Assembly: GCA_900128565.1 (NCBI GenBank)
Contig: LT635925.1
Span: 1-48,899 of the forward strand
DNA: 48,899 nt
Direction: 5' to 3'
Source of the DNA: Stramenopiles sp. TOSAG23-6
Taxonomy: Eukaryota > Sar
Shown: in pieces, positions 15,643 through 36,800 of the stretch
Position numbering within the stretch: position 1 is the stretch's first letter
How the letters are laid out: each line of letters begins with the position of its first letter
Notes under the pieces: generated by a model
Told to the model about the DNA's origin: nothing
What the model saw: the letters and a program-made list of their open reading frames with translations, nothing else
Databases searched by the model: none
Position numbers and translations under genes: made by a program

Positions 15643-17281
15643 ATGTCAGCATTATCACCTAGTAAATGCAAGGCATGCTCAGGTAAACATGTTGCTCATG
15701 TTTGTAGCCGTTCAACAAAGTATCGGCAAGATAATGGTGAATATGCCGGGAAAAGGCTTGCAAATAAGCGTCGAATGAATTCTGTAGGTCATGACGTAGA
15801 TAATATTGATCAGAAAGGGATAAAACGTCCACGAAAAGCATGTATGTATCCACGTGATAATGGAAGAGGTTCGCGGAGGACTTTTTTAAAATTAGCAAAT
15901 AGTTCAAAAAAAACGCCGAAGGACACTGTAGCTGATCTTCGCTCTGAATTATTGTCGAGAACTGTTGTTTACAACCCAGAAACAAAAATGCATTGCCGTG
16001 AGTGGGATACAACCGATGTTGTAAAGGGTGTAATTTCGGCCCTTCAAAAAAATGGTACACTGACTAGTTCACAAGTTGCATCAATAATTGGTGCCCCTGA
16101 AGGACACGTATGTTTTCATCTTGAATTTCAATTTTTTTTCTACCAAATTTCGTACCTAACGAATTTCAAGTGCAATATATTTTCCTAAAATACATGTTCA
16201 AGTTGTTTTAGATATTTTAGTGACAACTCCTTTAGCAAGTGAAGTTTTGGTTGGTACACGTGAACAAGTAAAAAAGTATACTGAAAATTTATCAAGAAGA
16301 GAAATACGGCGTCGTTTTAAAATGTTAGTAAAAGGTAATCCTGGTAGTTTGGCAGCCTTGGATGATAGAAAGAGCAAAAAAAATGAATCTAAAGGAAAAG
16401 TAATTGAATCCAAAGGAAAAGTAATTGAATCTAAAGTAGAACAAGTTGAATCTAAAGTAGAACAAGTTGAATCTAAAGTAGAACAAGTTGAATCTAAAGA
16501 AAAAGAAATTCAAAACCTGGTAATCATTGAAAGTATAGATAAGAAGTCTTCGTCAGTTACAAGTAATACTTGCAATACAAGTGATACGAATGAAAAGACC
16601 ACTACTCTTACTTCTAAGCCTAATGAAAGTGATGTGAATGAAAAAGCTGTTCAAGAATGCTCTCATCCGAATAGTCAAAAATTAGAAAACGAAAATGTTG
16701 TAGTAAAGACAAATATTTCTCCAACCAAAGTTACAGATTTGGAGAAGAAGGAGGATGATATAGGGCATACTTCATCTGTACCTCCTTCATCAATACATAA
16801 TAAGCAACATAATACTATTACGGCTTCTACTGCTTCACCATCCAAAACAACTACGCCTTTAGTAGCACCACCAGCAACAACACAGACAACATCCCAGACA
16901 ACATCTCAAACAGCTTCATTACAAGAAATACCAGCAACAACAACAACAACAACAACCATGAAAATACTAACAAAAAATTTCACTCAGGATATAAAACCAA
17001 CTGTTACACAAGATGGCCTGACTGTGACGTATATTTATAGAGACGGAAATCCGCTTCCATCAAGCATTCCATTAGGTAATATTGCCGATGCTATTAGATT
17101 AGAACGATTGCTCGTTCTTCGTAGCTCATCAAGAATCAAAATGTATAAAGCTGAAATGAAGAAACCTGTGAAAGAACGAAAGGTTCAAGATTTGTTGAAG
17201 AGGTATATTAAAAGTCATAAAGAACTGAATAGAAATGATTTCTATTCAGCAATTGCAGAAACCTTATTATCAGAGGAGTGA
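15643..17281 (+). CDS. Nuclear-looking CxxC-knuckle protein, interrupted by an intron element
   Basis: Two exons, 15643-16107 and 16196-17281, give 516 residues once the element at 16108-16195 is removed; they join as EGH|VQVVLDILVTTPLA. The N-terminus has a Cys/His cluster (CKACSGKHVAHVC) and a basic, probably nuclear, stretch (KRPRKACMYPRDNGRGSRR). A helical segment around the junction (NGTLTSSQVASIIGAPEGHV) could be a winged-helix or HTH-like fold. The middle is low complexity, with six 7-residue repeats (ESKVEQV type) and Thr-rich runs. The C-terminus is a conserved-looking region around TVTYIYRDGNPLPSSIPLG. The upstream non-ATG frame was not used. Function unknown; DNA or chromatin binding is only a guess. 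Confidence 0.65.
16108..16195 (+). mobile_element. Introner-like element 1 (88 nt), non-AG 3' end
   Basis: It starts GTATGTTTTC and ends AAAATACAT, immediately before GT. The core AAATTTCGTACCTAACGA is shared with the other copies, and the TACCTAAC branch-like A (16159) is 36 nt from the 3' end. Precise removal joins the two halves in frame (…GGA CAC|GTT CAA…). Every AG downstream in reach (16170, 16202, 16211, 16220) used with this GT gives an immediate stop. The junction is ambiguous by the shared GT. Confidence 0.85.
16385..16510 (+). repeat. Six 21-nt tandem coding repeats
   Basis: Six units of 21 nt encode ESKGKVI (2), ESKVEQV (3) and ESKEKEI (1). The three central units are identical at the DNA level. 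Confidence 0.9.
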
Positions 17282-17339
17282 GTAAAACATATAAAGTGTG
17301 TAATATAGTATAGTATAGATTCAAATTTATTTTAAATCA

Positions 17340-19556
17340 TCATAAATCAACTATTTTGTAGCATGCTTCATCCTCTTCAGACTCTTCAGAAGAAGTAGCA
17401 AGGAAATTATTCAGATTTTCTATAGATTCGGGTGTAGCAATTTGTATATCTCTCGCAGTCTCTGTTATACTATCTTTGTCTTTTTCTGTCATATCTTTGT
17501 TACTTTTATCAGTCTCGATTTCATTTTTGTTGTCTGTTTGTGGCATAACGTCTGTATTCTTTGCAGAGAACGTAGTATTGTCACTATCCGTCGCAGTAGC
17601 TACTAATGTCTTGGTGGTAGTATTTTTTGTACTATCTTTTCCAAATAAAACAGACGGGCTTGTCAAAGTATCTACAACATATGATGATTTAGATTTTCGA
17701 GAAGAAGATGAAATATTTTTCTCACTTGATACGCTACCTCTGGTTGTACCTTTTTTAGGTGTCATCCTTGCGAGAGGCCCACGGGATTTTAACTTTCTTT
17801 CTAATGCTTGAATATGAGAATTTTTTTCGCGTAATTCTTTATTCAAAATTTGAACATTTTCTTGTAAAAATCGAATTTCCTCACGTACTTTAGCATTTTG
17901 TTGTAAAAGTTGTTGCAATCGTTTAGCTAAAGCTTTCTTTACACCATCTTTATCATTTTGAGAATGTACACCACCATTGTTATTACTTAATGGAGAATCA
18001 AAATCGCTAAAAAGTGTTCTTGCTTTTGCAGCTGCTGCAATTGCACGTGCTTTAATACTACTGGAGGTTTTTGCAGATTTTGCACTTGTTATTGATTGCG
18101 TCAAGTTTGAATTTTTTAACTGGTTATCTGGAGACTGGAATGATGGAGTTTTTTCTGTAGAATTTGAAGATTCAAAAGTGATAGGCGAAGATGAATTTTT
18201 TGATACGGGTACTGCCATAGTTTCCCTATGCACATTCGCTGTCGACGTTGATTGGACCACATGCTTATATGTAGACTCTAATTGTCCATATTTAGTATGT
18301 AATTTCTGTAATTCTTTTTTGAGTGTTTTAATCAATGCTACTTCTCTTTTGCCTTTAACAACAGCATCATCTTTAACATCTTGAATATCAATTTTTAATT
18401 TCGCCATTTGCTCCGTTGATTCATTTAATTGAACTTCAAGCTCTTCTGCTTTTAAGCTTGCATTTATTCTACGTTTTTCTATCATTTCACATTTATTTTT
18501 TAAGTTTTGAATTTCTTCAGTCAAGATTTTGTTTTTTTCACTCAGATGATTTTTATCTGTTTCTGAAATTTCTAAAGATTCCTTCAACTGTGTAAACATT
18601 TGTCTTTCCTTATTTAATGTTTCCTGTATACTACAAATTTCGTCATTTTTTAATTGTATCGAATTTTCTGCTTTAATTAACGCAATCTTTGCCAGACTAG
18701 TTTTTTTTTGTGTTTCTTTTTCTGTGGCTTCCAATGCTTTCAAATCAATACGCAATTTACTATTCTCGCCCATGGCCTCCATTAGTGCGTCATCAAGCTG
18801 ACTACGTTGATCAGATTCGTTCAGTAACTGTGTTCGTAAGTGGCTGAGTTCCTTCTCCATTTTAGTATTTACAGCAACATTATCCTGAAGTTTCTTAATT
18901 GAGGATTTTGAGGATTGGGATTTGGTAGCCTGTAATTGCGTCTTTAACTTATCAATTGTTTCAGTAGATGTTGATACTTGAAGTTTTAACTCTTCTACTT
19001 CACTCATGGTTTTCTGTAGGGTAGCATCAGATTGAGAACGACTTATTTGTAAAACGTCAATCTCATCGAGTAAGTCTTCATTATGAATCTCTAAAGTTTT
19101 TAATTTTGTTTTTAACTCTGTCTCGTTAAAATCTTCAATCTGTTTTAATAAAGCATTTTTTTCCTTGGTCGCGGCAACTTTAGTTACACACAGCTCACCT
19201 TGTAATTTTTTAATGTCAGCGCGCAGTGTTTCCAATTCTGCCTTTGTCTTTAAAGTCTCATCACTTACGCTACCATTATTCACTGCTTCTAACGCCTTTT
19301 TCTTGGCATCTGCAATCTGTTCACGCATTATACTTTTGATCTGCTGAACTTGCAATTTAAGTTGCTCGTTTTCATCGGCAAGATTTCGCATCTGACGCTT
19401 CCTGGCGTCGTTTTCCTGCTTAGAGATTGTCGTCTTTTTGTTTGCGGAATTGCCACGTTTCAACCATCCCTGTAACCCTGCTTTGATGTCGGAAACACGC
19501 TGTTGAGCACTTCCAGCTGTAGCAGGCGAATTCGTCTTTGAGGGGTTTGACGACAT
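17340..19556 (-). CDS. Large coiled-coil protein, unknown
   Basis: From ATG 19556 the product is 738 residues, starting MSSNPSKTNSPATAGSAQQR. A further in-frame ATG at 19670 would add a very hydrophobic leader, but that region is AT-rich and looks like 5' UTR. Residues about 50-420 are nearly continuous coiled coil (heptads of Leu/Ile with Lys/Glu/Gln). A Ser-rich linker follows, then another coiled coil (KRLQQLLQQNAKVREEIRFL...) and a Ser/Thr/Asp-rich acidic tail. The amphipathic motif DIKAGLQGWLKRG near the N-terminus is distinctive. Golgin-, centrosome- or myosin-tail-like scaffolding is possible; I cannot choose. Tail to tail with the previous gene (58 bp). Confidence 0.7.
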   Translation of the reverse strand: MSSNPSKTNSPATAGSAQQRVSDIKAGLQGWLKRGNSANKKTTISKQENDARKRQMRNLADENEQLKLQVQQIKSIMREQIADAKKKALEAVNNGSVSDETLKTKAELETLRADIKKLQGELCVTKVAATKEKNALLKQIEDFNETELKTKLKTLEIHNEDLLDEIDVLQISRSQSDATLQKTMSEVEELKLQVSTSTETIDKLKTQLQATKSQSSKSSIKKLQDNVAVNTKMEKELSHLRTQLLNESDQRSQLDDALMEAMGENSKLRIDLKALEATEKETQKKTSLAKIALIKAENSIQLKNDEICSIQETLNKERQMFTQLKESLEISETDKNHLSEKNKILTEEIQNLKNKCEMIEKRRINASLKAEELEVQLNESTEQMAKLKIDIQDVKDDAVVKGKREVALIKTLKKELQKLHTKYGQLESTYKHVVQSTSTANVHRETMAVPVSKNSSSPITFESSNSTEKTPSFQSPDNQLKNSNLTQSITSAKSAKTSSSIKARAIAAAAKARTLFSDFDSPLSNNNGGVHSQNDKDGVKKALAKRLQQLLQQNAKVREEIRFLQENVQILNKELREKNSHIQALERKLKSRGPLARMTPKKGTTRGSVSSEKNISSSSRKSKSSYVVDTLTSPSVLFGKDSTKNTTTKTLVATATDSDNTTFSAKNTDVMPQTDNKNEIETDKSNKDMTEKDKDSITETARDIQIATPESIENLNNFLATSSEESEEDEACYKIVDL

Positions 19557-19999
19557 TGAAACAATTGAAAATAAGCGCCAATCAAAAAAAGGTAAAATGT
19601 CGCGCAATAATATCAATAAAAATATTATATTGAATCCAATAATATGTGTGAATGTGAGAAAGAAAAACATCAAAACAATATCAATAATATTTTGATGATG
19701 ATTTGCAATTTTTTGACACTTTGCTGAACCTTTTCAAAACTTATATTTCGTGTTGTTCAGTGCTGCGTCACCATCTTGGGGGAATCGTCTGCCGATTATA
19801 AGGACTTAGAAGCTATAATGTCATGTGTAATGCTGCAGAATACATACATTAATCACAACGGTCGATAGCATGTGATACAACATACTAGATTTTTTCATCT
19901 GTTTGGAAAAAAATTCTAAAATATAACATAATTTATAAAATGATGAAAAATATCAAAACCAACAGAAAATAAATGTGGTCAGCACTACAACCGTATTTT
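19557..19999. other. Intergenic, 5' of the coiled-coil gene and 3' of RPB8
   Basis: This 443-bp AT-rich region contains repeated AATATTATATTG-type sequence near 19620-19690. No RNA gene or promoter motif is recognised. Confidence 0.4.
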
Positions 20000-20449
20000 C
20001 TATCGACGCAAAGTTTTACGAATCAGACAATATACATTAGAATCTAATTCAATATTAATAAGATGCCTCTGTTCGCCTTTAATACACATCAGCAAGCCAC
20101 CGAATGAAACATATGCAGCAACACGGTGTTCTTTCTCGTGCTCGTATTTGAAAACTTTACCGTACATTCCGTACTCATATTTATCCAAAAGCGTAGGTTT
20201 ACCAGATTGATCAAACTCACCCGAATCTGGCTTTCCGTCTAAAGATAATGTTCTCGCAAGCGCAAAACTAATCTTTTCACCTTCATAGATTGGATATGCG
20301 TCAGTATTAATGTCAATGACAAGGTCGGTTTCATAAGCAACACCTTTACACTGAATTCGGTCAACTTTGTCGAACTTTTTACCATCTGGATTCTTTACAC
20401 GAACATCAAAAAGATCCTCAAAGAGAATAGAACTAGATCTATCACTCAT
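20000..20449 (-). CDS. RPB8: RNA polymerases I/II/III subunit RPABC3 (RPB8)
   Basis: This 149-residue protein matches the RPB8 family end to end: ILFEDLFDVRVKNPDGKKFDKVDRI at the start, the YEYGMYGKVFKYE strand and the AYVSFGGLLMCIKGE motif near the end. RPB8 is a shared OB-fold subunit of all three nuclear RNA polymerases. Length fits the family (about 145-150). Start ATG 20449. It is divergent from phosphate acetyltransferase with a 298-bp shared upstream region. Confidence 0.95.
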   Translation of the reverse strand: MSDRSSSILFEDLFDVRVKNPDGKKFDKVDRIQCKGVAYETDLVIDINTDAYPIYEGEKISFALARTLSLDGKPDSGEFDQSGKPTLLDKYEYGMYGKVFKYEHEKEHRVAAYVSFGGLLMCIKGEQRHLINIELDSNVYCLIRKTLRR

Positions 20450-20747
20450 TATACAATTACTACTATCCAGTCGTTAGATATCTAATTGCTATCGCGAGAG
20501 AATTTCACAAGAAGTGCTTGAATATAGTTATGCGAGTCGTTGATTTGAGTAGAGAGAAGCCAGTTCACTATAAAAAAAACGGATGACGGAACAGGTTTGT
20601 TCTTTCGCGATTTGCTACCACGCTCTTCAGAGTCCTTCTTAAACCTGTGCAATTTGCAAAAGAAAAATATTATTCTGAAAATACGCGAAATATTTATACG
20701 ACAACCCAACTCAAACAAAGCTCCATACGAATCGAGTATCAATATCA

Positions 20748-22025
20748 ATGGGTAGGATGCTGAAATTTATGCCACTTAGGTCTTTAAAAATGCAGCTTTA
20801 TCGGATGCGTGGTCGTCCAATAAAATACTTTGGCAATTTCGTTCACGACGGTATAAAATCTTCCCATAGACAATTTACAAATGTTGTATTAACTGAGTCT
20901 TTTTCTTCAAATGAGTCTTCTACAGTAAGCGATTTAAATTTGGTTTCAGAATTTGATACGTACCAGCCTTCATTATTAGATGAGCTGCACCTCCGTGTGA
21001 AGAATAGGCCACTGAAACACATTATTCTTCCTGAAGGAAATGATAAACGAGTTCAAGAAGCAGCTTATGAAGCCGTCACTCAAGGTTTAGCAAAAGTCAC
21101 TCTGTTCGTTGAATCGCCTCAAGAAGCCGCTCTTATTCCGCATGTGAAAGGGGTAAATGTAATTGTCCCCAATGATCATTCGGATATGAAACGTTTAGCC
21201 TCTGAATTTTATGCTGAACGTCTGAAGAAAAAATCGAATATTCTTGTTAAAGATACAGTTGACCCTCATTACTTTGCTAATTTGTTGGTGAAGGACGGCC
21301 AAGCTGATGGTGTAGTTGCTGGTGCTCTCTTAACTACTGGAGATGTTGTCCGTTCCGCCATTCAATGTATTGGGCCAGCAACTGGTAACTCGGTGATTAG
21401 TAGCTTCTTTATAATAGAATTTCCAGAGAATCATCCGAGGGCAGGCGCAGTTCTATTTGCAGATTGCGGAATAAACGCCGAACCAACAGCTGAACAACTT
21501 GCAGAAATCACTTTACAAACGGCATCCAGTGCGAATCAATTATTATCATCTACAGCATTACCACCGCGTGTGTCTATGTTATCATTTTCAACACATGGAA
21601 GTTCAGCTCATAAAAATGCAAAAAAAACACGAAATGCTTACGAAAAAGTATTACTGAAAAGGACTGAATTAATTTCCTCATACGAAAGTAGTAATACACA
21701 AAATACTGGAAAAACTCCATTTGGTACAGTTAATGAATTAAAAGAATTAATTATTGATGGTGAGCTTCAGTTTGATGCTGCTGTTGTACCAGATATTGCA
21801 AAGAAAAAGGCTCCTCAATCAGCAATACAAGGAAATACAAATGTTTTTGTATTTCCTAATTTAGACGCAGGTAACATTGCATACAAAATGGCTGAGCGTT
21901 TTGCCGGAGCGAAAGCGATAGGCCCTATCTTACAAGGTTTAAAAAAACCTTCAAATGATCTTTCTAGAGGTTGTGATATTTCAGATATTATTCATTCTAT
22001 TGTTATCACATCCCTACAAAGTTAA
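20748..22025 (+). CDS. pta: Phosphate acetyltransferase (PTA/PTB domain), probably organellar
   Basis: This 425-residue protein has a C-terminal PTA_PTB domain of about 330 residues: KHIILPEGNDKRVQEAA, the DGVVAGALLTTGDVVRSAI segment, GPATGNSVISSFFI, ADCGINAEPTAEQLAEI and NVFVFPNLDAGNIAYK. It interconverts acetyl-CoA plus phosphate and acetyl phosphate plus CoA. About 75 extra N-terminal residues are basic and hydroxylated (MGRMLKFMPLRSLKMQLYRMR), consistent with a mitochondrial or plastid presequence. Several Met near the start leave the exact start open; ATG 20748 is the first. Acetate kinase, the usual partner, is not in the window. Tail to tail with the H+-pyrophosphatase (121 bp). Confidence 0.92.
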   Translation: MGRMLKFMPLRSLKMQLYRMRGRPIKYFGNFVHDGIKSSHRQFTNVVLTESFSSNESSTVSDLNLVSEFDTYQPSLLDELHLRVKNRPLKHIILPEGNDKRVQEAAYEAVTQGLAKVTLFVESPQEAALIPHVKGVNVIVPNDHSDMKRLASEFYAERLKKKSNILVKDTVDPHYFANLLVKDGQADGVVAGALLTTGDVVRSAIQCIGPATGNSVISSFFIIEFPENHPRAGAVLFADCGINAEPTAEQLAEITLQTASSANQLLSSTALPPRVSMLSFSTHGSSAHKNAKKTRNAYEKVLLKRTELISSYESSNTQNTGKTPFGTVNELKELIIDGELQFDAAVVPDIAKKKAPQSAIQGNTNVFVFPNLDAGNIAYKMAERFAGAKAIGPILQGLKKPSNDLSRGCDISDIIHSIVITSLQS

Positions 22026-22146
22026 AACACATGTAAATGACTTCAAAAAGAAAAAAAAGTAATAAAAAAAAGTTTTTTTTACTTTGTCTAATTTATGAGA
22101 GTAAAAACATATTTCAAATTGTAATGGTAAGTACTACATACTGTAG

Positions 22147-24741
22147 TTATTCATTTGGATTTTTTCCAATAAAAATTGGTCCAAGGACTAAGCATGTCGT
22201 CGTCATTGTAGTAATAATTACGTGTAATGCTGGACCAGCTGTATCCTTAAATGGGTCGCCAACGGTGTCGCCAGTCACGGATGCCATATGAGCATTGCTT
22301 CCTTTCCCACCATGAGCTCCAGCTTCAATATATTTTTTTGCATTATCCCAAGCACCACCACTATTATCTAAGAACATTGCCATCATAAGCCCAGTGAGGG
22401 TTTCAAACATCATCATTCCACACAAAACTTCAACACCTAAGTCGTATTGACCAGTATATTCTCCGATAAATCTAAATAGTAGACCAATACAAATTGGTCC
22501 ACCTAAAGCAAAACATGCAGGCTTAATCATTTTCTTCAATGCTTCACCTGTGACTATAGCAACACACGCTTGATAATTTGGCTTTTGTTCATATTGAAGA
22601 ATTCCCGGCATTTCGTCAAGTTGTCGTCTAACTTCTTCGACAACCTTTTTTGCCGTTTGACCCACTGCATCAAGTGATAAGCCTACAAAAAGAAATATAC
22701 TCATTATTCCGAGTAACCCACCTACTAAAACTTCAATTTTACCTATATTAACATCATAAAAAGGTCTCCCAATAAATTCACTCATTTCATCTAAAAAGGC
22801 ACGAAATAATACAAAACATGCAAGTGCACTTCCTCCAACAGCATATCCTTTCGTTGCCGCTTTAGTAATGTTTCCAACCGCATCAAGTTCATCTGTAATT
22901 GCGCGGACTGTCTCTGGTTGCCCAGACATTTCAACAATGCCTCCAGCATTATCAGCAATTGGACCAAAATTATTCATACTCAAAACAAAAACAGCAGTAC
23001 ACAAAGTTCCCATCGTAGCACACGCTGTCCCGTACAACCCTGCAGCAACAGTGTTTGGTAAACCACTATTTTTACCTAAGTAATACGATACTAAAATAGA
23101 GATACTAAGTACAATTGTAGGTACAAAAGTTGATTCCATCCCAACAGAGATTCCAGATATAACATTTGTACCATGTCCTGTTGTTGATGCAGCAGCTATT
23201 TTTTGTACAGGTCCATGCGTATAATCAGTGTAATACTGTGTGGATAGAAATAGACAAAATGAGGATAAAATTCCAACTAAACCACATAGAAAGTAGTTAT
23301 ACCATGCAGAAGGTGCAATGGGGTCACTTAATAAAGCATAACAAGAAATAGCATATGTACAGATCGCACATATAATAGATATAATATAAGCATTCTGCAT
23401 AATTTTTAGTGGACTACCACGTGACGTTGAATTAACACACATAATACCAACAATACTTACAACAAGGTCAGTTCCATGAATAACTACAGGGAAAAACACG
23501 AAATGTTCAGGATTTGTCACACCTGACTTTGCCGCAAGTTCACCACCAAGAATCATTGCGCCTATAATTTCCCCACTAATTGACTCAAACACATCCGCCA
23601 TACTACCAGCACAATCACCCACATTATCTCCCACTAAATCTGCAATGACAGCAGGATTGCGTGGGTCATCTTCGGGAATTCTGTTTTCTATTTTACCAAC
23701 CAAATCTGCGCCAACGTCAGCTGCTTTTGTGTATATTCCACCTCCCAACTGCATAAATAAACCTACAAATGATGCGCCAAAACTATACCCAGCGATAAAT
23801 AAAGGAATTTTTTTTGAGTCCACGCCACCAAAATATGAAAAATTTAAGTAGGCTGCAATGTATAAAAGTGAAACTCCAAGAATGCACATTCCTGCTGACA
23901 ATATACCAGATACTGCTCCACCACGGAATGCTAATACTAAAGCTTCACGAGTCAGGCCACATGTATTGTGAAAAAAAATATCAACAAAAAAAAATTGTTA
24001 GGTATGAAATTTTGTACAAAAAAATAAATTTGAAGTTAGGGTGAGGGTTGATAATGAAAGCGTACGTGATGCTGCGCTGGCTACTCTGACATTAGCACGT
24101 ACTGAAAACCATACTCCCACATACCCTGCCAATGCAGAGCAAAACGAACCCAATAAAAATGAAAAACTTGTAAATAAGGCTAACGACAGTTTATAATTCT
24201 CCAATTCAGGAGAAATAGCTGGCCTATTTAAATATAGTAGACATAATAAACATGATGTTATTAAAGAAGATATAAATACGGCATAATACTGGACCTTCAG
24301 GAATCCATCCGCGCCTTCTTTTATAGTCGATGCGATCTCTTGCATTTCTACCGTTCCGCAGTCCGCTTTTAATATGCTCTCTGAAAGGTGTATTGCAACA
24401 AAAAATGAACCAAGAACGATTAATAGTGTCATCATCATATATACACCACCTATTTCACTTCCTAGAAATGCTACAGCTAATATAGCGAGTACATTTAGAA
24501 CCATGACAAAGGTTACTAAATTTCCTACCCATTTTGGGACATCTTGTGATGAAAACCTCTGAGACGAAGAGACAACCCTGGGAACTCCAAGCGATTTAGC
24601 AAGTCCCATAGGAAGACCAAAACGTGAGGATATCCCTCTATTTTTTCGTTGCGAGTCATCATCACGTGGCGACGAGGGTATACCTGCTGAACCTCCTTCA
24701 AGACTAGTATATTGATGACCGCCTCTTCGTGTAGGTAACAT
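22147..24741 (-). CDS. K+-independent (type II) H+-translocating pyrophosphatase
   Basis: Exons 24741-24066 and 23960-22147 give 829 residues when the element at 23961-24065 is removed. The enzyme couples PPi hydrolysis to H+ pumping across acidocalcisome, vacuole or Golgi membranes. Substrate-binding motifs are present: DVGADLVGKIE (from about residue 307), NPAVIADLVGDNVGDCAGSMAD, ADNAGGIVEM and the C-terminal GDTVGDPFKDTAGPALH. The K+-site position reads GNITKAATKG, with Lys and Thr as in K+-independent enzymes. The splice junction AASR|GLTREALVLAFRGGAV aligns with the family pattern AA-x-x-GL...AFxGGA, while the uninterrupted reading hits TAG. An N-terminal cytosolic Arg/Ser-rich tail of about 65 residues precedes the first helix. 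Confidence 0.93.
23961..24065 (-). mobile_element. Introner-like element 4 (105 nt) in H+-pyrophosphatase
   Basis: Read on the minus strand it starts GTACGCTTTC and ends CACAATACAT before GT. The core GTACAAAATTTCATACCTAAC includes TACCTAAC, whose A (23998) is 37 nt from the 3' end. Its length is a multiple of three but it contains an in-frame TAG, so it must be removed. Excision at the GT rule restores the conserved R|GL residues. The nearest AG acceptor (after GTGAAG) would keep frame but delete GLTREA, six residues of a conserved helix. Confidence 0.88.
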
Positions 24742-25005
24742 TCTCTACAATTAGATAACCTATAATTCCTATAATTTCTGGAAGCAACAACAACAACAAG
24801 CACCGAAGTCCTTTGAATTCACATTCAAAAATACACGAAATCCTAAGAAAAAATCGGAACTCACAATTTAATTGATTGGAGTCAAATTGTGACTGTCATA
24901 ATATTAAAGCTGCATTCGCATAAATTGTTCTTCTGCAGGTACTACTGTAACCAAATTCTAAAAGTTTTGCTTCATACTCTGCTAGGAAAACCATTCTAGA
25001 TAAGA
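24742..25005. other. Head-to-head intergenic region
   Basis: This 264-bp spacer lies between the H+-pyrophosphatase start and the proposed first exon of the next gene. No clear motif is seen. Confidence 0.4.
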
Positions 25006-27866
25006 ATGGCTGGATCAGTGTAAGTTTTGTTCATTTGTATTATTTTTCTACACAAACTTGGTACTTTATTGGGTACATTTTTAGATAATATAGTTATTCT
25101 CAATGGAGAGTTTATCTCTGTTGAAAACTTGTTTATTTTTTATTTTTTGCCTAGTTGTCCTTAGAACTATTACACATTACATTACGTAAAGCCTTTTAAT
25201 TTCATAAAGTTATACTTGACGTATCCATTTTTCACTGTAGTACTTGCGATTTTGCAATCCTTGCGGGTTCGGACAGCGACGTCGAAGAAAGAATTCCTCG
25301 GAAGTCCAAGTCACAGCGTAAACGAAATAAAAAAAATAAAATGTCAAACTCTTTACAAACAACGAGTACACATGTACAAGATACTACATCGGTTGAAGTA
25401 AGTCATAATCCGGAAGATGCTAGTATCATACGTCAAGTGTGTCGTGGAGGTTTCTCAAAAAAGGAAATCGTAAATGCCTTGCAAAAGCTTCGAGCTCTCG
25501 ACTTTGTGATTGATGCTCGAAACGTTTTACAATACCTCAAAGAGGCAGATTTAAAAGAAGTATCCGGAGAATTATATGATCCATGCACTTCTGATTATTT
25601 TGCAATGTATGGAAAGAAAACCCCTACCCCTACTCAAAATAATTCTCCTTTCTACCAAAATTCATTCACAAATATACACTTGCCAAGGTCGTCCACTCCA
25701 GTTTTTGGTGGCAAAAATCAAACTAAAAATACTTCGCCAACAACGTCAACCATAATTAATGTTGAATCTAAATCTATGAACAATGAAACCGTCATTGAGA
25801 ATCAAAAGCGAACTCTTGAAAAAGTGTCTGATCTCGAAAATTTAGAAGAAATTCTTGATGCGTTGTCCTCCTATTTTAAAACATTTCCAAGTATGTTTTC
25901 AAAATTGAATGTAAAATATTTTTCAAGTTCGAATTTATTTTTTTAAAAAATTTTTCGTAGTTAATTTTGTACCTAACAAAACCTAACGAAACCTAACAAA
26001 ACAGTTGAATGTAAAATATTGTTTCACAATACATGTATGTTTATTTTTTTCAATTTGGAATTTTTTTTTCGTACAAAATTTCGTACCTAACAAATATATA
26101 TATATATATATATACTTTTTCATAATACAAGTATTATTCCAGTATTTTTTGAAACTTCTGCCTTACAAAAAATACTGATGAATCTTTACACGAAATCATA
26201 CAAACCAAAACGAATTGACAAAAAACTAAAATTATTCTTTGAAAGACTTTTTTTTCAGAAATTGGAAAATCAGAATTTGAACGCAAGTGAAAAAGAAAGA
26301 AAAATATTTCCTCAAAATGTTGTTGTCTGTGTTATCCGTGATATTTTTAATGTAGTATCCAATTGGAAACATTCTGAGAATTCTGACTTACCACAATTAA
26401 GTGAGATTATTGAATGGATCTCAAGATGTATAAAAGAAAGTTGTGATATATTCAAAACTTCAACTAAAGCATTTTTAGTATGTACAGAAATGCGTAAGAA
26501 AATTGAGGAGACTCGAGAAAAAGCAGCAAAATTATTAACTGTACCATTGGGTATTACTAATACTTTGAATACAACTAAAACGATGTTTGCTCTGCGTGAT
26601 ATTCAGTATAATCTTGCGCGTTTGTATAAGCAAAAACAATGTATTTTTCAAATTCAAAATTCGTCAAGTGCGAAATTTGGTACCAATTTAATTTCAAATA
26701 CACCAAGTACTATGCTGACTGAATTGGTAGTAGACACCGCAACTGATGATCCCAAAACTGCATCACTTCAAAATGACTCTTTATTAACAGTTTTAAATGA
26801 AATGTCAAAAATAACGGATGAAGATTTCAAGATAAATGAAGAATATGAAAAAATACAATCTGAAATGATGAAAGCTCATGAAAAGAGTTGTACTGAAATA
26901 AATTGTAGAAAAGATGAAAAAATGAATCGAATAAAGACAATAAAAGAACAAAGAAGAAAATTATTGGATGAATTGGCAATTGTTGATGAAAGTCTCAGAA
27001 ATGAAGAAGAGGGGTATACAATGCTACTGAAAGAAAAGACAGATTTAGAAAGCAAACGTTTGGAGATTTTGAATTCAAAACTGGGACAATATGAAAAAAC
27101 TGTACAAATGGTGAAAACGAATAAAAAGTGTTTGGCAATGAAAAATCTTTTGATTTCTTTACGTACGAAATGTTCTGACAGTAGCCATATTTATCAAAAT
27201 AAATGTAGACAAACCTGTTTTGGATATGGAACGGATAAATATGAGGAAATGGTTCAAAAATCAAATCTTGAACATTATAATGCAGTGTTTGCGTATTTAA
27301 TGACAGAAATTAAATGTATTGATTACTTAAAGAATCGTATTAAAAACAGTACAACCGAGGAAAACTTTTGCAATAAAGAAATAAATTACTACCAGAATAT
27401 GGGAAGTATGAATAAAACCCTTCAAAATCTTATAGAAAAACGTACGAAATGTTGCCAAATTAAAAATGAAGATGTACAAGCTTCAGAAGCAATCTTGAGT
27501 TTGTGCCACGAAATATTTAAAGACGTTTGTTCATCAAGTAAAATATTGAAGAAAAAAAATAATGATAATGATATTCATAGTATTGATAATGATGAAATTG
27601 AAGCTGTACGTCGTCTAGTGATACCATTCAGACAACTTGGTATAGGATTGTCGAATGATTGGATACCTGGTGCAATAATTGAACCTATTTCTATATCTAA
27701 AGACTCATCAAATAATTTTGAAGACAATATTGAAGAAAAAAATCCAATATCGAACAAAATTATTGAGACGTCAAGCTCAGTGAAGAAACCACTACAAAAT
27801 GATTGTAATAATGACACGTCGCTTTCGAAGCATCTTACGTGGATTAGAACAACAAAATTAAAATAA
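25006..27866 (+). CDS. Coiled-coil protein, unknown; one GT-AG intron and one double introner
   Basis: Proposed exons are 25006-25019, 25241-25890 and 26131-27866 (2400 nt, 799 residues). The first exon (MAGSV) is inferred because the upstream part of exon 2 (GSDSDVEERIPRKSKSQRKR) is open and coding-like without its own ATG; otherwise the start is ATG 25341. An N-terminal helical domain (SIIRQVCRGGFSKKEIVNALQKL) resembles a UBA-like or small helical bundle. A Ser/Thr/Asn-rich linker follows, then a helical region after the second junction (IIPVFFETSALQKILMNLY). Residues from about 500 on are a long Lys/Glu coiled coil with interspersed Cys. No family recognised; a cytoskeletal or kinetochore scaffold is possible. 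Confidence 0.65.
25020..25240 (+). other. Probable conventional GT-AG spliceosomal intron (221 nt)
   Basis: The 5' site is GT|GTAAGTTTTG, the 3' site TTTTTCACTGTAG. The phase-2 junction joins ATGGCTGGATCAGT to TACTTGCGAT, giving MAGSVTCDFAILAGSDSD in frame with the downstream gene. It lacks the repeated TACCTAAC core and the ACAT end, so ordinary introns coexist with the element family. It could alternatively be 5' UTR. Confidence 0.55.
25891..26034 (+). mobile_element. Introner-like element 2a (144 nt), first of a tandem pair
   Basis: It starts GTATGTTTTC and ends CACAATACAT, followed directly by the GT that begins element 2b. It contains three 10-bp tandem copies of ACCTAACRAA (25971-26000). 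The A of the last CTAAC (25996) is 38 nt from the 3' end, the spacing of the other copies. A 15-nt direct repeat TTGAATGTAAAATAT lies near each end (from about 25905 and 26006). Confidence 0.75.
26035..26130 (+). mobile_element. Introner-like element 2b (96 nt), second of a tandem pair
   Basis: It starts GTATGTTTAT and ends CATAATACAA before GT. It has the core GTACAAAATTTCGTACC followed by TAAC, with the branch-like A (26090) 40 nt from the end, and a (TA)n tract at about 26095-26114. Removing 2a plus 2b (240 nt) joins CCA A|GT ATT ATT in frame (FPS|IIPVFFE). CAAGTAT occurs at both outer edges, a 7-nt direct repeat like a target-site duplication. Confidence 0.8.
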
Positions 27867-28030
27867 ATATGTTGTTTTTCAAGTATCTTTCTTTGGGTTT
27901 GAGAGAACATCAAAATATAAATTAAAATTAATAAGGATTGAAAAATGTTGTTTCACGATTACTAATTAAAAAAGAATAAAAAGTTTATCTTGAATAAAAA
28001 TTGATATTTTTATAGAAATGACATTAAACC

Positions 28031-29071
28031 CTAACTGAGTGCCGTTTGTAATGCTTGTTGTCCTCGTTTCGCCATTACACTCACTTCTCCTTTTCGTGTT
28101 TTATCAATAAAACCAATTTTTTGCGTGATTGAAGAATCTGGAACATATTTCCATGCGTCACTATATATAGGTTTATGTTTATTATGATTATTTGTTTTTT
28201 TTGGCTTTGGAAGTTCCTCAATATTGTAATGATCAAATCGTAAAGAACTATTAACAAGACTCTCCCCGGGGGATAAAATGTCGAGTTTATCTTTTTGTGA
28301 TGGATGTTCTTTCATCATAGACTCGAAGTGGCCGTACGGTGTTGCTTCAATAGCACCACTTGCCCAAAGACGTGGGTCTAATACCAATCTTTGCCTGGAT
28401 TTTGCTATACTTACTTGTTTATTAGAAGTGGCAGTATCTAATGTTTCTTCCGCGAGTCGTTGAAGAACCCGGCGAGTTGGATTATTTAAATTATTTGTAT
28501 TTACTCTTGGAAACATAATTGGCGTTTGTGGTGCAAAACCTGAAGGCGTTTCGGAATCTAAAAACATACCCCCTGTAGCTCGATTTGATAACTTTAGAAA
28601 GTCAGTAAATTGTCGAAATTTCATTTCTTTTAATGTTTTTGAATCCATCGACTCTAAGGAATTGGCCACACCATTCTGTATTTGGGAAAACACTTCATCA
28701 TGCCAATCAAGATACAACTTTGATTTCTTTTGTTTGTCCGTTTGTTGTTGCATTGTTAGAAAACGATCAATCTCTTCAACGAATTTCCCTCCTTTTTTCA
28801 ATTTTACCATAGAATCAGCAAATTTCTTTTTTCCAATCTCTCTTTGGAGTTGTTTTTTTTCCTGGAAACGGTAGTCACTTTCTTTTTCTTTTAAAGATTG
28901 CATCTTGATCCATTGTGCGTATCGAAGTTTTGCTCGAACTAATTCTTTTTCTTTTGGAGTGAGCTTCTTTCTTGGCTTTAGAAGTTTGTTTGTTTGCGTT
29001 GGAGATGATAGACCATTGGTCAAACCAGCAAAAAGCTCTTTGTTATAGACTTTACAGGTATCGGAGGACAT
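28031..29071 (-). CDS. Basic helical protein, possibly FAM228-like, ciliary
   Basis: This 346-residue protein starts at ATG 29071. The N-terminal half is Lys/Gln-rich helix (KEKELVRAKLRYAQW... QEKKQLQREIGKKKFADSM). A segment LYLDWHDEVFSQIQNGVANS...FLKLSNRATGGMFLDSE resembles, from memory, the FAM228-type pattern found in ciliary proteins; this is a weak match. The C-terminal half has conserved-looking motifs DPRLWASGAIEATPYGHFE and YSDAWKYVPDSS. The stop codon lies within a TTAGGGTTTA sequence. If the ciliary reading holds, the organism is flagellated. It is divergent to the HEAT-repeat gene. Confidence 0.5.
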   Translation of the reverse strand: MSSDTCKVYNKELFAGLTNGLSSPTQTNKLLKPRKKLTPKEKELVRAKLRYAQWIKMQSLKEKESDYRFQEKKQLQREIGKKKFADSMVKLKKGGKFVEEIDRFLTMQQQTDKQKKSKLYLDWHDEVFSQIQNGVANSLESMDSKTLKEMKFRQFTDFLKLSNRATGGMFLDSETPSGFAPQTPIMFPRVNTNNLNNPTRRVLQRLAEETLDTATSNKQVSIAKSRQRLVLDPRLWASGAIEATPYGHFESMMKEHPSQKDKLDILSPGESLVNSSLRFDHYNIEELPKPKKTNNHNKHKPIYSDAWKYVPDSSITQKIGFIDKTRKGEVSVMAKRGQQALQTALS

Positions 29072-29393
29072 ATTGAGTACTACGTACTATTAATACTAAC
29101 CTTATACCTACTATATATTCAAGAATATATCTTATCGCTATTTAGGACCGAAAAAAATGTAACTGCCGCCACGACTACGTAGTACTACGGAAGGACTTCT
29201 ACTATTATACGTTGTAGTGGCATTCAGTACGTATTAATATCTACTATTGTAGTAGTATTAGTCTTACTTTAACATTAGACAAAACTAGAAGAGCAACATT
29301 ACAATTGAGTTTGGTGGTACATCATAGGAATACAAAGGTGCCATAAATATAGAGTATACATTTATTACAAATATTACAAAAGATACCACAATA
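29072..29393. other. Head-to-head intergenic region
   Basis: This 322-bp spacer is rich in TACTACGTA-type palindromic words (about 29083, 29187 and 29228). Their function is unknown; they might bind a dimeric regulator. Confidence 0.4.
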
Positions 29394-32300
29394 ATGAGGT
29401 CAATTCGTCCTGAGAGAAAGCACTTCAAGAGACAAAATAGCAATAATATTGTGTTTCAGGATGACTTTGCAGAAGCCAATAAAAAGTCAAACAAACATGC
29501 AGTTGAAGAGAAAACAAACATTTCTGTGTCAAAAATACAAAATCAATCCAACGATTTTCGACATAGAGCAAATAATCATCGTCAAGTAGATGAAACTCTA
29601 CAAAATCACACACATCATTCAAAGTATCATAGTCACAGGTACGCTACCCAAAATGAAGACTTTTCTTCAGCCACACAAAAGCACAAACGTGGTCAATATG
29701 ACTACGTCAATCAAAAGCAATCACAATTACAATCCTCAATATTCGATGATCCTTCGGAAGAACCATCAATTCAGCATAGGTATCAAAGAAATTGGACATC
29801 GAAAAAGAATCCGAATAAACTAAAAAAAAAGGGAAAATATACTGAGTATCCTATCTACTCTAACCCTAACCTTTCTCCCAACAGACCCTCGCAACGTCGA
29901 TATGAGAATTCTCTCTCAGATTCTTTTAGTGACAATATTGAAGATGATTATAGATATGAGCAATCCCGTTCTTATAGTAGTGAACGATCTCAAGGTGGAC
30001 GTCATTTGAAAAACCCGAATTGGAGAAGTTTTAAAAACCATGACACTCCACAAAAACAGAGACGCAGACGAGATGTAGGTATTCAAAAATATCGTGAGGG
30101 TAATAAAAATGGTGAGAGGCATATTCAATGGAAAAATAATCCAAAATATCAAAATAATCCAAAACAACAAAATAATCAAATATATCAAAAAAATCAAAAA
30201 TATCAACATAGTAATCAAAAATATCAACATAATAATAATGGGAAAAGGTCTCAATATAGTGAAGATTGGCGCAAAGATCTTGAACGGCTTGATAATTATG
30301 AAACACAAGATACTGCAGTAGAAAGTCTAAATGTTTATATTACACGAAATATCATAAATTTTTCACAATTTCGAATATTTTTGTCTGCATCAGAGAAAAT
30401 TTTGAAAAAGTTTCGTTTATCCTCCGCAAAGGAATTAATGGGGAATTTATTAACAAATGTAACAAAGCGATATAGACTACACTGTTGTAAGAGTAGACGT
30501 CAAATTATGCGAGTCATTTTGCGCTTTATAGAAGATAATGATATTAAAGTTCGTCTATCTGGTGCTCGACTTTTACAATCTCTAGTTGGTCGTGTATTTC
30601 CGAAATTAAATGAAACGAGTTCTGGCGGTCGAGGAGCAGCAGCTATGCAACCCAATATTAACCCCAAGGCTCAATTTACGGAAATTATTCTCTCCCCCAT
30701 TTTTGAAATATTGAAGAGTAAGAGTTTTGAATCTCAGCGACAAGGTGCAGCATTATGTCTTTCTTATCTTGTAGCCCAGCAAAAAGCCTCAGCTGTAGAT
30801 TTATTGGCGTCTTCTCTTGGCTTCATAGCAACAAAACTTCAGCAATGTATCTGGACTGAGCGTGGTCGAGCAGGGTCGTTCCTCTGTGATGCAATTTCCA
30901 ATTTAGTAAATTCGGTTGGACCTCGAACTAGTGCGCCACATATTGAGCGGTTTGTCGAATGTATGTTACATTGTTTGCATGATAAAGATACAGCATGGCA
31001 AATGTGTACATCTGGAATTCATTCATTATCCGTTTTAGGTACTTTAGGTAGGCATTCAGGAACAAATCTAAAATACCAAAATAAAATATTACCAGAAAGA
31101 AAATTAAATGAAATAAATTTGAAATTGGAAGATTTGATGCACTATCACGAAGTGAATAAAGTGCGCCAAGCTGCTCAAGATGCACTTGACAAAATTAATT
31201 CGAATCATTCAAAACAAGAATCAAGTGTTTCAAATAAACATCAAAATGTTGAGAATGATCAATATAATCCATTACTTTGGTACAAAAAAAAATATAATAT
31301 AATGAATAAAACAGACGCACCTAAAACTGTTGTTTTACAAAGTAGCAATATAGGGAAATATTATATTGGGCAAAGTGTATCTGGTTTAGGTGAACAAAAT
31401 GAAATTAGTGGAATTATAATTAGAAAAACAAATAATTCTGGTAAAATTTCAAATTCAAATACTGTAGAACCTGGGATTATAACAATACAAGTAGTGACAA
31501 GTGAAAATAAATCTGCTAAATATAATAATCATGATATGATTGATATAAATAATGATAACAATGATGAACAAGATAGTGATTCGTATTACATTCCCATTTC
31601 ACCAAGGAATCGACAGAAACGTAGAAATATCAGAAATATTAATAAAAATGAAAATACAAAACTTAGTGCTGCGTATCATCCACACTCTAATCCCCAAAAT
31701 TATTCAAGTTATAATGAATCAAATGAAAATGATGAGATGGAAATGGATTTTAAAATAAATGAAAAAAAGAAACATTTCGATGCACAAAATAAACACAAAC
31801 AAAAAAAACGAAATACTCACAAAAATTTACACGGAAAACAAAGTAGTAAGCCCAGTATATCACAACAAATACAACCTCAGCAAATGAAACTTCTTTCAAA
31901 ACACATGTCTGACTTAATGATGCAAAATAATGAGTTAAAGAGTGAAATAATAGAAATTCGTAAATCCATAGAACAACATCAAATGGAGCCAAAGTATAAA
32001 GTATATGAAAAGCAAGAGCAAAGCAGTACAAATAAAAAAATCATAATTCCAAATTTTGAAAAGAAAAATGAAAATGTTCAATCAGATAATACTTATAGGT
32101 CCAAAGATAACAATGATTTATATAGTTCCAAAGACGACAATAATTTACCCAACAATTTGAATATGATTTCGAAAGTAAAGTATGAGAATGAAGTGAGATC
32201 GGATGATATAGAAATTAAAAATGATACAANACATAAAAAAANGTCATAGAAANCAANGAAAACAAAGAAAACAAAAATATGAAAAACATGAAAAAAAGAA

Positions 32301-33450
32301 AAAAAAAAAGAAGAGGCAAGGACAAGAAGAACAGGAACAAAAAAATGATTTAGTGACAGCGACATTGGATGCAAATACGACACCATTTACAAACGTACTA
32401 ACTTCGCTTCAACCAAAATTAACTGTAGTACCAACACTACAAACTGAATTAATAAAAAGTAGAGAACGACAACAAAACATGCACTTAAGTCACATTAAGG
32501 AAACAAACCATCTAGGAATGATACCCGGTTCACCCAAAAAATATTTTGAAGTGAATGAAACTACATCTAATGACAACCTTAGTGACAAGAATCATGTTAT
32601 ACAAAATAATATTGATAGTCATACATACGCAAATGAAGCTTTTTTGAACAGTTTTTCGAGTACATTTAGTAAAAATCACAAAATGTCAACTGTTCCCGGC
32701 TCACCTATAAGAGGTGGGGGTTTATCAGCGAGTCGTCAAATTAGATCAAGTTTGCTTCATAATAATAACACAATGAATCGTCATTTATTTGATGTTACAC
32801 TAACCTCATCGTTATTGCATGATGATATACCGGTTGAAAATACTGTTTCATTGTCGGAGGGTAGGGTGGATAGTACCCAGCAAATTCGAAATTCATTAGG
32901 TGCAAAATCAGATTCATTATCGGATGGGCCAAGTGCCCCCGATCTGACTGAGACTCACCAAAGTAAAAACCTCGCAATATCTGGTACAGATATAGCTTCA
33001 GAAGTAAAAATTAAAAATGATTCACTCGCGCAGACTCATGAAGATTTTCGAACAGCTTTATCATTAAACCCTAACCCTACAGAAATAGCAGATACAACAG
33101 AAACAAACCATGGCACGAATACAAGTAAATCACGAAATCCTATAATAGCCACTGAAGCTGATTTATTAGAGTTATTACTCTCAGAAACACCATCATCACT
33201 ATCTACCATGCCCCAAAATACAACCAATATATTAATGCAGGTTTGTGCAAAAAGTGTTTTAGCTGATGAACATCTTGATGCAGTGTTACCATGGTTGAGG
33301 GAAGGTGCTTTAGTAGGTGTACATCTCGATGAGGACACTAAATCAACTGTGCTTTCAGCATTGCATCATCTCAGTTACTCAAGTAATCAAGACGGTATTC
33401 TTGCAGCTGAGCTAATACAACGAGAAGCTTTTCAAACAAACACGTTGTAA
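29394..33450 (+). CDS. HEAT/TOG-like repeat protein, frame broken at ambiguous bases
   Basis: ATG 29394 opens a frame to 32249, and a second frame (32221-33450) continues the same kind of protein. The break coincides with four N bases at 32230, 32242, 32253 and 32257 in an A-rich tract, so one gene of about 1,350 residues with an unresolved sequence is likely. The N-terminal 300 residues are disordered and rich in Asn, Gln, Lys and His. A HEAT/ARM-like region follows (encoded about 30300-31190; VRLSGARLLQSLVG, RQGAALCLSYLVA, DKDTAWQMCTSGIHSLSVLG), resembling the N-terminus of TORTIFOLIA/SPIRAL2 microtubule proteins. The C-terminus has a second helical region (about 33140-33440). A microtubule role is inference. 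Confidence 0.65.
32230..32257. other. Ambiguous bases (four N) at a frame break
   Basis: N at 32230, 32242, 32253 and 32257 lie in a poly-A-rich coding tract. The reading frame changes by +1 across them. Haplotype collapse or consensus error is more likely than a biological frameshift. Confidence 0.85.
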
Positions 33451-33878
33451 AATTTTTAATGATTGTTATAAATATATAAACAAAAATGAATTTTGTTTTT
33501 GAATATATATATTGGTCAATATGCTCTTTCCAATGTAAAGTGTCATATGATGCTGATAATAATTGCCTTGGAGTCTGGTTATTATATTGTTGGTCATCAC
33601 AAATCAAAAATAGCAAAAAACATCTAGTTTAATTTTTTAAATTTTATTTCAAAATAGCAATCCTTGAATTCGCGATCTGATCAAGTCAGCGCCGTAAACA
33701 GAATATAATTTAAATTAGTAATTACCCTTTATAAATTTAGCCCGCAAATTGAGAAATTGAATTAATAATATGCGTGTGACTGATCTGACTTCTGATCATC
33801 GATGATGCATGTGAACAATACGAATAGTACTCGTGAGTAGAGCTATTTAAGTAGACTGGTATCAAATGAAATAAGATT
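33451..33878. other. Intergenic region before VPS54
   Basis: This 428-bp region between tandem plus-strand genes contains GATCTGATC- and GATCATCGATGATGCAT-like palindromic words near 33680 and 33795. No gene is seen. Confidence 0.4.
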
Positions 33879-36800
33879 ATGCATAGTTCGATAACATCAA
33901 TGAAAGCTCATTCTCTCTTGGGTATTCCTGATGAAGAAGAATACACTATTGTCCAAACATCAGAGGAGAACGTTGCAAAAGTTCCCCAACCAGAAACATC
34001 TCGTCAACATACACTGCTACGCCGACACGACACGCCGCCACTCATTAAACTAGCAAACATTTCTGACCCCAATGGATTTACTGCAGTAATTCATGATCCA
34101 CTAGATAATCCTACAACATTCAATAGATCTCTGAGCTATACATCATCGTATACTCTTCCAACAGCACAAATTTCATCGGTAGAATTTTCAGAATTCGAAG
34201 GATACATTGCAGAGATTGAAAAGCTTCATTATAAGTTAGTTGAAAACCACAAAACGAATGGTGGCACGATTGTTGAAGAATCAGCATCAGAAGAAAAAAT
34301 ACGTCAACTTTTACGAGATGTAGAAAACGTTGTACCTAAATTATTTTTCAGCAAACAATTTGCCTTTTCCGATGCATCTACTTTTAAAACAGTGACAGAG
34401 TCGCATGTGAGAGAAAATAGCAACCTTTCAAACTTAGGTGCGATGAATTCTAATCGTAACTATGATAAAGGTGGACAGGTACAAGATGAAAATCTGTTTA
34501 ATGAAAACAATCAGCACAAAGAATGTATCCAGAAACTTTCGCAATATTTAGAATTTGTCGAGTTTGTCATGCTGACGATAGTTTCTTCTAGGTCTCAGTC
34601 ATTTTTTGGTGCTCTCGAAGGTCTACAACTTTTTAAATTACAAATATCTTCTACATGTTATAAAATTAGATCTTTACGTGGACTCTTGCGGAGACTTAAA
34701 GGTGCCTTAGTTACAGGTTCATTGAAAATTATTCAACTTCGTCGACGTCGAGCTAATGTTTGTTTTCATATCAAATTCTGTACCTATTTTGTTTTGTGGT
34801 TTTGTGGTTTTGTGCCAAATTCTGTACCTAACAAATTTCAAACTAAAACATATTTTTCAATTACATGTGAAAAAAATCCAAGAAAAACTTAATTTTGTGT
34901 GTGGTGCAATGCAGACTCAGGAGTTAGTACAATTATTACTAGAAAGTGAAAATTATAGTGGTGCCCTAGATGTCATTGATGAAGTAAGAAATACTTTAAA
35001 AAGAGAAATTTGCGGTTTACATGCCTTGCAATTTCTTGAAAATAAGTTAACTCAATTTGTCAATTTAACGTCTAATACAATGACAAGTCAGTTTCTACAT
35101 TTGGCAATGCATCTTGGTTCAAATAGCAGCGATAATACAAATATTGAGGATGAGTCATCTACAGGTATTTTGAACAATGACAAAAATAATATAAATACAA
35201 GAATTGCAAAAATGTCCACTTCCAAAGATAGAGCTCGTTTTTTCCGATTACTTCAAGGTCTCCTTCAAGTAGGGAAATTACGTACAGTTTTGCGAGAATA
35301 TCGAAATCGTGTTGCAGAAATGGCTACTTCTGTTGTAAAAACCGCCGTACAAGCTGCATTAGGGACCCATAATAGCACAGTTACTATGAATGAAAAGGAC
35401 TCTCTGCAATCATCTCCGAATTCATCCAACTTAAGTACAAAAAATACTACAGAAAAACGTCCATCTATCAGTGTTGTCCGCCAACTACAAATGTTGGACG
35501 AACATTCATTTTTAGAACTTTTCGATATTGTTCGTGAACAACTTGGAATAGTCATTATTCGTGCTGTTGCTGTACATGAAATATTACAGAATTGTCTTGA
35601 AAAATGTCAAAATGACGTCGAAAGACAAATTTCAGAAAAAAATATAAATAAACCCAATAATAATCTCCATGAGAAGAGTAATGTCGATATGAATAGAAAT
35701 AATAGTAATACTAAAACGAGTGAAATTTTCCAAGTAAAACTAAAAGATACAAAAGATACAAAAGATACAAAGGAAACAAAACCAAAATTGAATGAAAGTG
35801 TCACTGACATTTCGACTTCTCAGTTAATCACAAAAATCACAAATTCTGGAAATATTGTTAATCCTAAAATTTTAAAATTTCGTGTAGATAAAAAAACATC
35901 ACTGCGTGAAAGTCGGGAATCTCTAATACATTTTTGGGTATTAGCTCAACGGCATATCGGCCGAATGCTCGAAGTACGAGCTGAGCTTCACAAATCTTCT
36001 GCATTAACACAGATGAATCAACTATCGCTGAAGTGCACTTCTTTTATTCATCAATATGCTGTTCTTTGTGGGAGTGATGGAGCAGTACTGCTTAATGTAT
36101 TAAAGTCTCAATTACAAGATCAATTTGAAATGATGCACATGACACATATACAACATATGATGCATATTCTTGCTACTGAAAGTTGGGAATCTTACCAAGT
36201 GTCAAAATTGTTACAAAAATTGTTAGACTTTGTCATTGAAATTTGTAATGAAAAAAAATTGGAAATGGAAGATTCAACGAATAAATTGTACAATCTTACA
36301 AATACTCAAAATACACAAAGAATAACACTTATTGAAATGATAGAATATGTTGAACACTTTGAAGTATTTAGTACAAAAACAACTGTATTACCTACGACAT
36401 ATAGTAGTACAAAACAACACGAAAAGAAGAATCGCACAATACCAAAATTATCAAAATTATTTGCTAAATTTCATGGACAAAAACAGAAGATGTGTTCCTT
36501 AAAAAGCATTGACTATTGTGTACCAAAAGCTACAATATATGTCGTATATATTTTAACTACTTGTATTCAAACTTGTCGTCAATGTCCCCATTTATTATCA
36601 CAAGTAGTACAAAAAATTGTACTAACTATTCGGAAATATAATTTCCGTTCATCTCAACTTATTTTAGGTGGTAAAAGTGTCGAGTCACGAGACTCGCCGA
36701 TAAAAAAAGTGACTGCGAGGCATTTATCGTTGGTTGCACGAAGTCTCTCATTTTTGGTCGTTTTCGTGTCGGAAATTAAAAAATATTTAGGTATTACATT

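Follow-up and report, generated by a model that had tools for sequence, protein, structure and literature searches.

Elements within the genes of the window

The window analysed here is the whole stretch of 48,899 nucleotides (nt) of contig LT635925.1 from Stramenopiles sp. TOSAG23-6 (GCA_900128565.1), contig 383 in an 8.03-Mb assembly of 408 contigs, and several of its genes are interrupted by short, mutually related elements. An earlier analysis of the letters alone (hereafter the sequence-only reading) had proposed four such loci as introns that do not end in AG and whose excision restores the frame. All four loci are present as proposed, and their excision leaves single long open reading frames (ORFs) of about 517, 809, 1104 (VPS54) and 830 (H+-pyrophosphatase, H+-PPase) residues. 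The locus at 25891-26130, however, had been taken as one element and comprises two abutting ones (25891-26034 and 26035-26130), and the count of four overlooked a further element that begins at 48812 and is truncated at the contig end. The copies of the window are as follows (a slash marks an element boundary, a caret a protein join):

Copy 1, 16108..16195, plus strand: within a 517-aa gene (15643-17281) with no Pfam match; the branch-like core lies within 16146-16161.
Copy 2a, 25891..26034, plus strand: first of a head-to-tail pair, within an 809-codon ORF (25200-27866).
Copy 2b, 26035..26130, plus strand: adjoins copy 2a with zero exon between (ACAT/GTATG); its last bases are AA.
Copy 3, 34758..34866, plus strand: within the VPS54 gene (33870-37290); join RRRRAN^VKKIQEKL.
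Copy 4, 23961..24065, minus strand: within the H+-PPase gene (22147-24744, minus strand); join AAS^RGLTREAL.
Copy 5, 48812..48899, plus strand: the contig end falls inside the element.

The exon that precedes copy 2a ends in AA, as does copy 2b. Contigs end in or beside elements not only here (48812-48899) but also at the starts of C42, C57, C84 and C85, as expected because a repeat stops assembly.

A repeated family with splice-like signals

The four elements are related to each other, as had been claimed, and they are also akin to hundreds of sites elsewhere in the genome. Across the genome, exact matches to the core TTCGTACCTAAC number 347 (194 + 153), compared with 4 to the same pattern reversed; for RTAYGTTTTCATNATGAATTT, an independent pattern from the 5' end, the figures are 118 and 0. 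Both the 347 and the 118 are somewhat inflated, since duplicated and mirrored contigs are included. In contigs C2, C4 and C58 the matches stand at mirrored positions on opposite strands, which suggests that these contigs are palindromic, probably as amplification artefacts; C13 and C14 are apparent near-duplicates. Two exact element patterns gave no match in viral_contigs.

Copies were then scanned with weight matrices for the 5' end, the core and the 3' end and de-duplicated by their flanks. This yielded 140 copies in 129 sequences and none in the reversed sequences. The 129 sequences, which comprise the window and total 316,634 bases with overlaps counted, are the part of the genome fetched through family matches, and the conservation of the core is biased because most loci came in through it. 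The copies are 71-197 nt long (median 96) with a G+C of 0.20, and similar copies sit at many unrelated coding sites, as in introners. Their lengths modulo 3 are evenly spread (47/42/51 of 140), hence reading through them is no alternative.

The elements start with RTAYGTTTT, where position 1 is G in 123/140 copies, A in 13/140 and T in 4/140, and where positions 2, 3, 5 and 6 are nearly invariant T, A, G and T, giving a GTRNGT-like 5' context. When copies were selected solely by the 5' motif, 22 of 29 had a branch-site-like motif, TTYGTACCTAAC, with no more than a single mismatch, compared with none of 29 shuffled windows. The motif fits the branch consensus YTNAY, and its putative branch A lies a median of 38 nt before the element end. 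The GTAYGT start resembles a yeast-type donor and CTAAC the usual branch site; on sequence, both look U2-type. U12-type (AT-AC) introns start with RTATCCTTT, have their branch near the end and terminate in AC or AG. This class was rejected, given the start RTAYGTTTT, the branch A 38 nt from the end, and the rarity of AC (4/103) and AG (3/103) ends among the copies described next.

Frame restoration and the position of the cut

A clear open frame on both sides makes 110 of the 140 copies testable; the other 30 were dropped for short flanks or indistinct frames. Excision from the R of RTAYG to the second base past AC restores the frame in 103/110, where one third is expected by chance (binomial p ~1e-40). 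The elements end in CACAATAC or CCAAAATAC plus two bases, and the last dinucleotide of the 103 in-frame copies is AT in 77, GT in 7, AC in 4, TT in 4, AG in 3 and others in 8. The AG expected of a canonical U2-type 3' end is thus confined to 3/103. The fixed CAT or CAA end of the sequence-only reading does not hold either, with AT in 77/103 and other dinucleotides in 26/103.

The copies might instead be ordinary GT-AG introns that use the first or second GT and nearby AGs, with proteins that differ by some codons from those given here. A second GT stands at intron positions 5-6 in nearly all copies (G 137/140, T 138/140), so element 1 does not have the single GT donor once assigned to it. That second GT gives element 1 in-frame, stop-free AGs (net -1 codon at best), although none had been thought to work, and gives element 2 an in-frame AG (net +1 codon) where all AGs near the edge had been said to yield stops; the own GT of element 2 with an AG is also in frame (net -4 codons). 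The complementary claim for H+-PPase and VPS54 was borne out, as their in-frame AGs with the own GT delete at least 6 and at least 16 codons, respectively, in the range scanned. GT-AG pairs in frame, those of elements 1 and 2 included, exist in 85/103 copies. Rules that take the nearest AG following the branch or the element end, with five donor offsets, nevertheless restore only 29-45/110 (26-41%), near chance, against 103/110 for the fixed end. Only 27/110 copies contain an AG between branch and end, and it is in frame in 5, 6, 16, 6 and 16 of these 27 at the five offsets. Moreover, the registers equivalent to the rule include a GT-AG one in only 3/103 copies. It is therefore the family statistics, together with the conserved proteins below, and not elements 1 and 2 alone, that speak against GT-AG introns, and we regard them as very unlikely.

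The frame fixes the removed length modulo 3 only, and the register was taken from proteins and stops. Single loci cannot show the cut, because some shift leaves the mRNA unchanged in 93/103 copies. In the printed stretches of the 103 copies the zero register gives no junction stops, whereas shifts of -2, -1, +1 and +2 give stops in 3, 1, 2 and 4 copies; each of these shifts was accordingly rejected as a single rule. In H+-PPase the zero register encodes R (homologues: R 98/239, K 38/239), while shifts -1 and -2 encode C, which is outside the eight commonest residues there. For diaminopropionate ammonia-lyase the rule yields I, the residue of the three aligned chains, and shift +1 yields M. If one rule holds for all copies, the cut would be at NN/RTAYGTTTT...AYNN/.

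Joins within conserved proteins

Several conserved proteins are rebuilt without gaps against their homologues. The joins are HFRS^VHRG in RPA2, GCNNM^CSYC inside the cysteine motif of a MiaB-type enzyme, LPDG^M and PIS^VYTSGKG at two junctions of MCM5, and WDIK^MDWGL in XPR1; these argue against GT-AG joins, and the join of diaminopropionate ammonia-lyase is counted as conserved as well. Those of RPA2 and the MiaB-type enzyme fix the codon and not the register, since homologues vary there. Of the alignments that the sequence-only reading had proposed as checks, that of VPS54 bears it out: the join is gapless against fungal Vps54 (26% identity, 180 residues). The VPS54 protein search returned three distant fungal relatives only and no GSMAST32 record. 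The H+-PPase alignment does so in part: the rule scores 426.9 bits (rank 14 of 1659 stop-free joins) and the best GT-AG join 412.5, about 14 bits lower, but close registers are not separated because the junction lies in a variable loop.

The best H+-PPase match, EukProt GSMAST32.ASY1.ANO1.489.1 (92% identity over 96% of the query), equals the window translation, compared by eye, except for omitted stretches and the junction. At the junction it keeps the intron-coded TLSLSTLTLTSNLFF and is without GLTREALV. Such a record is consistent with a GT-AG join, yet the loss of GLTREALV and the retention of intron-coded residues tell against that join, and from the aligned sequences we judge that the record mis-models the junction. 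The same protein (P0001) also omits several short segments for which the window has an open frame; the gene finder apparently placed spurious introns there. The available text of PMC5778133 states that too few complete proteins matched MAST-3F for gene-finder training; odd introns of this kind could help explain that shortfall. The protein record carries the label of MAST, a stramenopile group, and we take the present genome to be a MAST single-cell assembly, probably the MAST-3 of that paper.

Pairing of the ends

Removal from RNA without a spliceosome, as for the hairpin-type introns of euglenids and hemistasiid diplonemids or by an endonuclease and a ligase, would accommodate the missing AG and the ambiguous boundary repeats. 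The first and last 16 nt of the copies do pair slightly better than shuffled ones (mean -1.9 against -1.0 kcal/mol; stronger in 115/136). This pairing is nevertheless weak, and an end-pairing hairpin of the kind found in Amoebophrya was rejected on these grounds; the mean fold z of the elements is only -1.0. A conserved internal hairpin, GTACGAAATTTCGTAC, was also discarded, as the left arm of the palindrome decays with no clear compensation or covariation. The yeast-like 5' site and CTAAC are conserved here, unlike in two hemistasiid species, of whose introns 2.4% and 6.8% have the branch motif according to the accessible part of PMC12621601. We consider such non-spliceosomal removal unlikely.

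Direct repeats, orientation and spread

The exon dinucleotide before the element equals the last dinucleotide of the intron in 62/103 copies, compared with a mean of 39.3 and a maximum of 50 in 5000 shuffles. Among copies with non-AT ends, the exact 2-nt repeat is found in 14/26 against 3.8 expected. Position by position, matches of the repeat number 99 against 74.6, 108 against 94.1 and 80 against 75.4 of 140. In sequence terms the signal looks like a 2-nt target duplication, and a 3' end that for the most part copies the exon dinucleotide accounts for the sequences better than a fixed CAT does. Of the intron class with a GT...CAT or CAA boundary made ambiguous by a shared GT, as previously put forward, GT...non-AG survives (103/110 frames and the homologues) and the fixed CAT does not. 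In 41/103 copies the two dinucleotides differ; 29 of these 41 have AT on the intron side, a pattern suggesting that AT was later selected for.

The flanking ORFs run on the strand of the element in 135/138 copies, and no copy of the 138 has both flanks open for fewer than 30 codons. The three copies that are not sense-oriented are one antisense within an ORF (L010) and two ambiguous. The antisense copy, on the minus strand near 1469 of L010, is read through as coding sequence. A sense bias of this kind agrees with removal at the level of RNA rather than DNA. Elimination at the DNA level, as with the internal eliminated sequences of ciliates, would mean that germline DNA had been sequenced, and the short direct repeats, of which one copy is kept on removal, and the precise restoration of frames would suit it. 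Such a process, however, has no reason to favour one orientation, whereas 135/138 copies are sense; the elements also bear a 5' splice-site-like start and a branch motif, and an element-free version was found in the assembly for 0/20 sites. We regard it as very unlikely.

As to how the family spreads, insertion at the DNA level with duplication of the target would leave the terminal two bases. Reverse splicing into AT/G sites is an alternative for this step only. It would explain the sense-only distribution in genes and the cases in which a second copy sits exactly at the end of the first (25891-26130 and L012), and the AT/G exon context resembles a preferred site. Set against this, the agreement between exon and intron dinucleotides exceeds base preference, and the L010 ORF holds an antisense copy. 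Reverse splicing is hence a possibility that we do not favour.

Splicing machinery and the proposed explanation

What can be read from the DNA itself is a family with one boundary rule, a sense orientation, restored frames, a repeat signal and joins within conserved proteins. We think it likely that the copies are introners removed from RNA, probably by the ordinary spliceosome, which would cut at a 3' site other than AG. Under this explanation the family would consist of mobile, non-autonomous introns of about 70-200 nt, lying in sense orientation within the genes of a tiny, uncultured marine protist and spread by insertion into DNA. The 5' site and the branch site, both conventional, would be used by a U2-type spliceosome, which would make the 3' cut after ACNN with no AG; the last two bases would mostly be a leftover of the target-site duplication. 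The assembly contains PRP8, of which a 255-aa segment aligns over its full length with solved PRP8 (557 bits).

Several observations weigh against this explanation. The 140 copies were found by the family's own motifs in part of the genome only, and at the working threshold the scan missed copies 2b and 3 of the window (a lower threshold placed the end of copy 3 wrongly). Seven of the 110 copies depart from the rule (L005, L013, L040, L075, L084, L122 and L124), one with Ns, one tandem and the rest unexplained. Of the 85/103 copies in which some near-5' GT and some AG keep the frame, 6 show no change of length, and the element's own GT with some AG does so in 47/103. In H+-PPase, 13 of the 1659 stop-free joins outscore the rule, by at most 3.4 bits. 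Fewer copies have an AG between branch and end (36 of 140) than shuffling of the segments predicts (69.9); either an AG there might still be used, or the ancestor may simply have had none. The third base of the boundary is near to being without repeat signal (80 against 75.4 of 140). None of 20 joined sites was found empty in the assembly; the top match of that search was an exon between two chosen introns whose probes are adjacent in the query, and four spanning matches among the loci, considered as empty alleles, were judged self or duplicate-contig matches. U2 and U6 small nuclear RNAs (snRNAs) were not found in the assembly by family and pattern searches; this carries little weight, since the assembly appears incomplete and no control genome gave a signal. 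A junction-centred H+-PPase protein search gave no transcript among the best 120 of 7995 matches; the best was 69% identical, therefore from another organism.

A stronger version of the explanation is that the lineage has largely abandoned AG, that nearly all its introns belong to one transposon-derived family, and that an otherwise ordinary spliceosome chooses the 3' site by its position after the branch and by the terminal ACA, with any duplicated dinucleotide accepted. Only hints point this way: no clear conventional intron was seen among about 25 ORF-defined genes of the window (ORF list read by eye, no homology test), the fetched part of PRP8 is one ORF of 2021 codons, and HSP90 is open over 730 codons. 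We therefore put this version forward as a speculative one that is probably too strong.

Other features of the window

Between 29328 and 33450, two overlapping plus-strand ORFs meet at an N-containing stretch near 32230-32257 and are probably one gene split by the assembly. A gene is preceded at 15508 by the motif AGGGTTAGGGTTA, which recurs in reverse-complement form at 40842-40865; it is a possible promoter motif or telomere-like box.

Relation to known introns and significance

The nearest precedent is the introners of Amoebophrya. According to the sections of PMC7789003 that were available, strains A25 and A120 of these syndinian dinoflagellates share with the present genome repeated introns in a marine protist, many of them non-GT-AG, and short direct repeats that span the boundary and make it ambiguous; most spliceosome proteins are present there. 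The Amoebophrya introns, which have RNA-seq support, carry inverted repeats (8-20 nt) and direct repeats (3-5 nt) and lack a clear splicing signature, whereas the present family, known from DNA alone, has a conserved RTAYGTTTT and CTAAC, weak end pairing and a 2-nt repeat. Between its first and last 16 nt this family shows only weak pairing in place of such inverted repeats, while direct repeats do occur at the boundary. The introners of diverse eukaryotes, as described in passages of PMC9860276, are likewise similar introns at many loci, with some families that take a splice site from the duplicated target. Their donors are GT and rarely GC or GA and their acceptors AG; here the repeated dinucleotide is AT, GT, TT, AC or others instead of AG.

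A massive departure from GT-AG is also described, in the text available of PMC13326754, for the larvacean Fritillaria borealis, where the U2-type spliceosome is conserved and the departure is tied to duplicated U2AF subunits and snRNA modification; the present case differs in its lineage and its conventional 5' site. The hemistasiid diplonemids have non-GT-AG introns with a nearly complete spliceosome, but the excerpts of PMC12621601 report that splice sites are not conserved and that the ends pair extensively, in contrast to the strong motifs and weak pairing found here. No report of these introns appeared in the literature on introners or non-canonical introns in MAST, MAST-3, MAST-3F and stramenopiles, as represented by titles, starts of abstracts and passages (including PMC5778133 and PMC9903769), with subscription journals sparsely covered. 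In the main text of PMC8163842, as far as it was accessible, the word intron is absent.

The 3' AG is among the most universal signals of eukaryotic genes. This family combines conventional signals at the 5' site and the branch with a 3' dinucleotide that is nearly free, a natural separation of these requirements, and its many copies are parallel tests of 3' site choice. Gene finders misread such genes, and models from this genome can be in error where an element lies, as the H+-PPase record illustrates. If the label is right, non-canonical introners are extended to a stramenopile. The family also illustrates a way in which a transposon could give rise to introns that bring no AG of their own.

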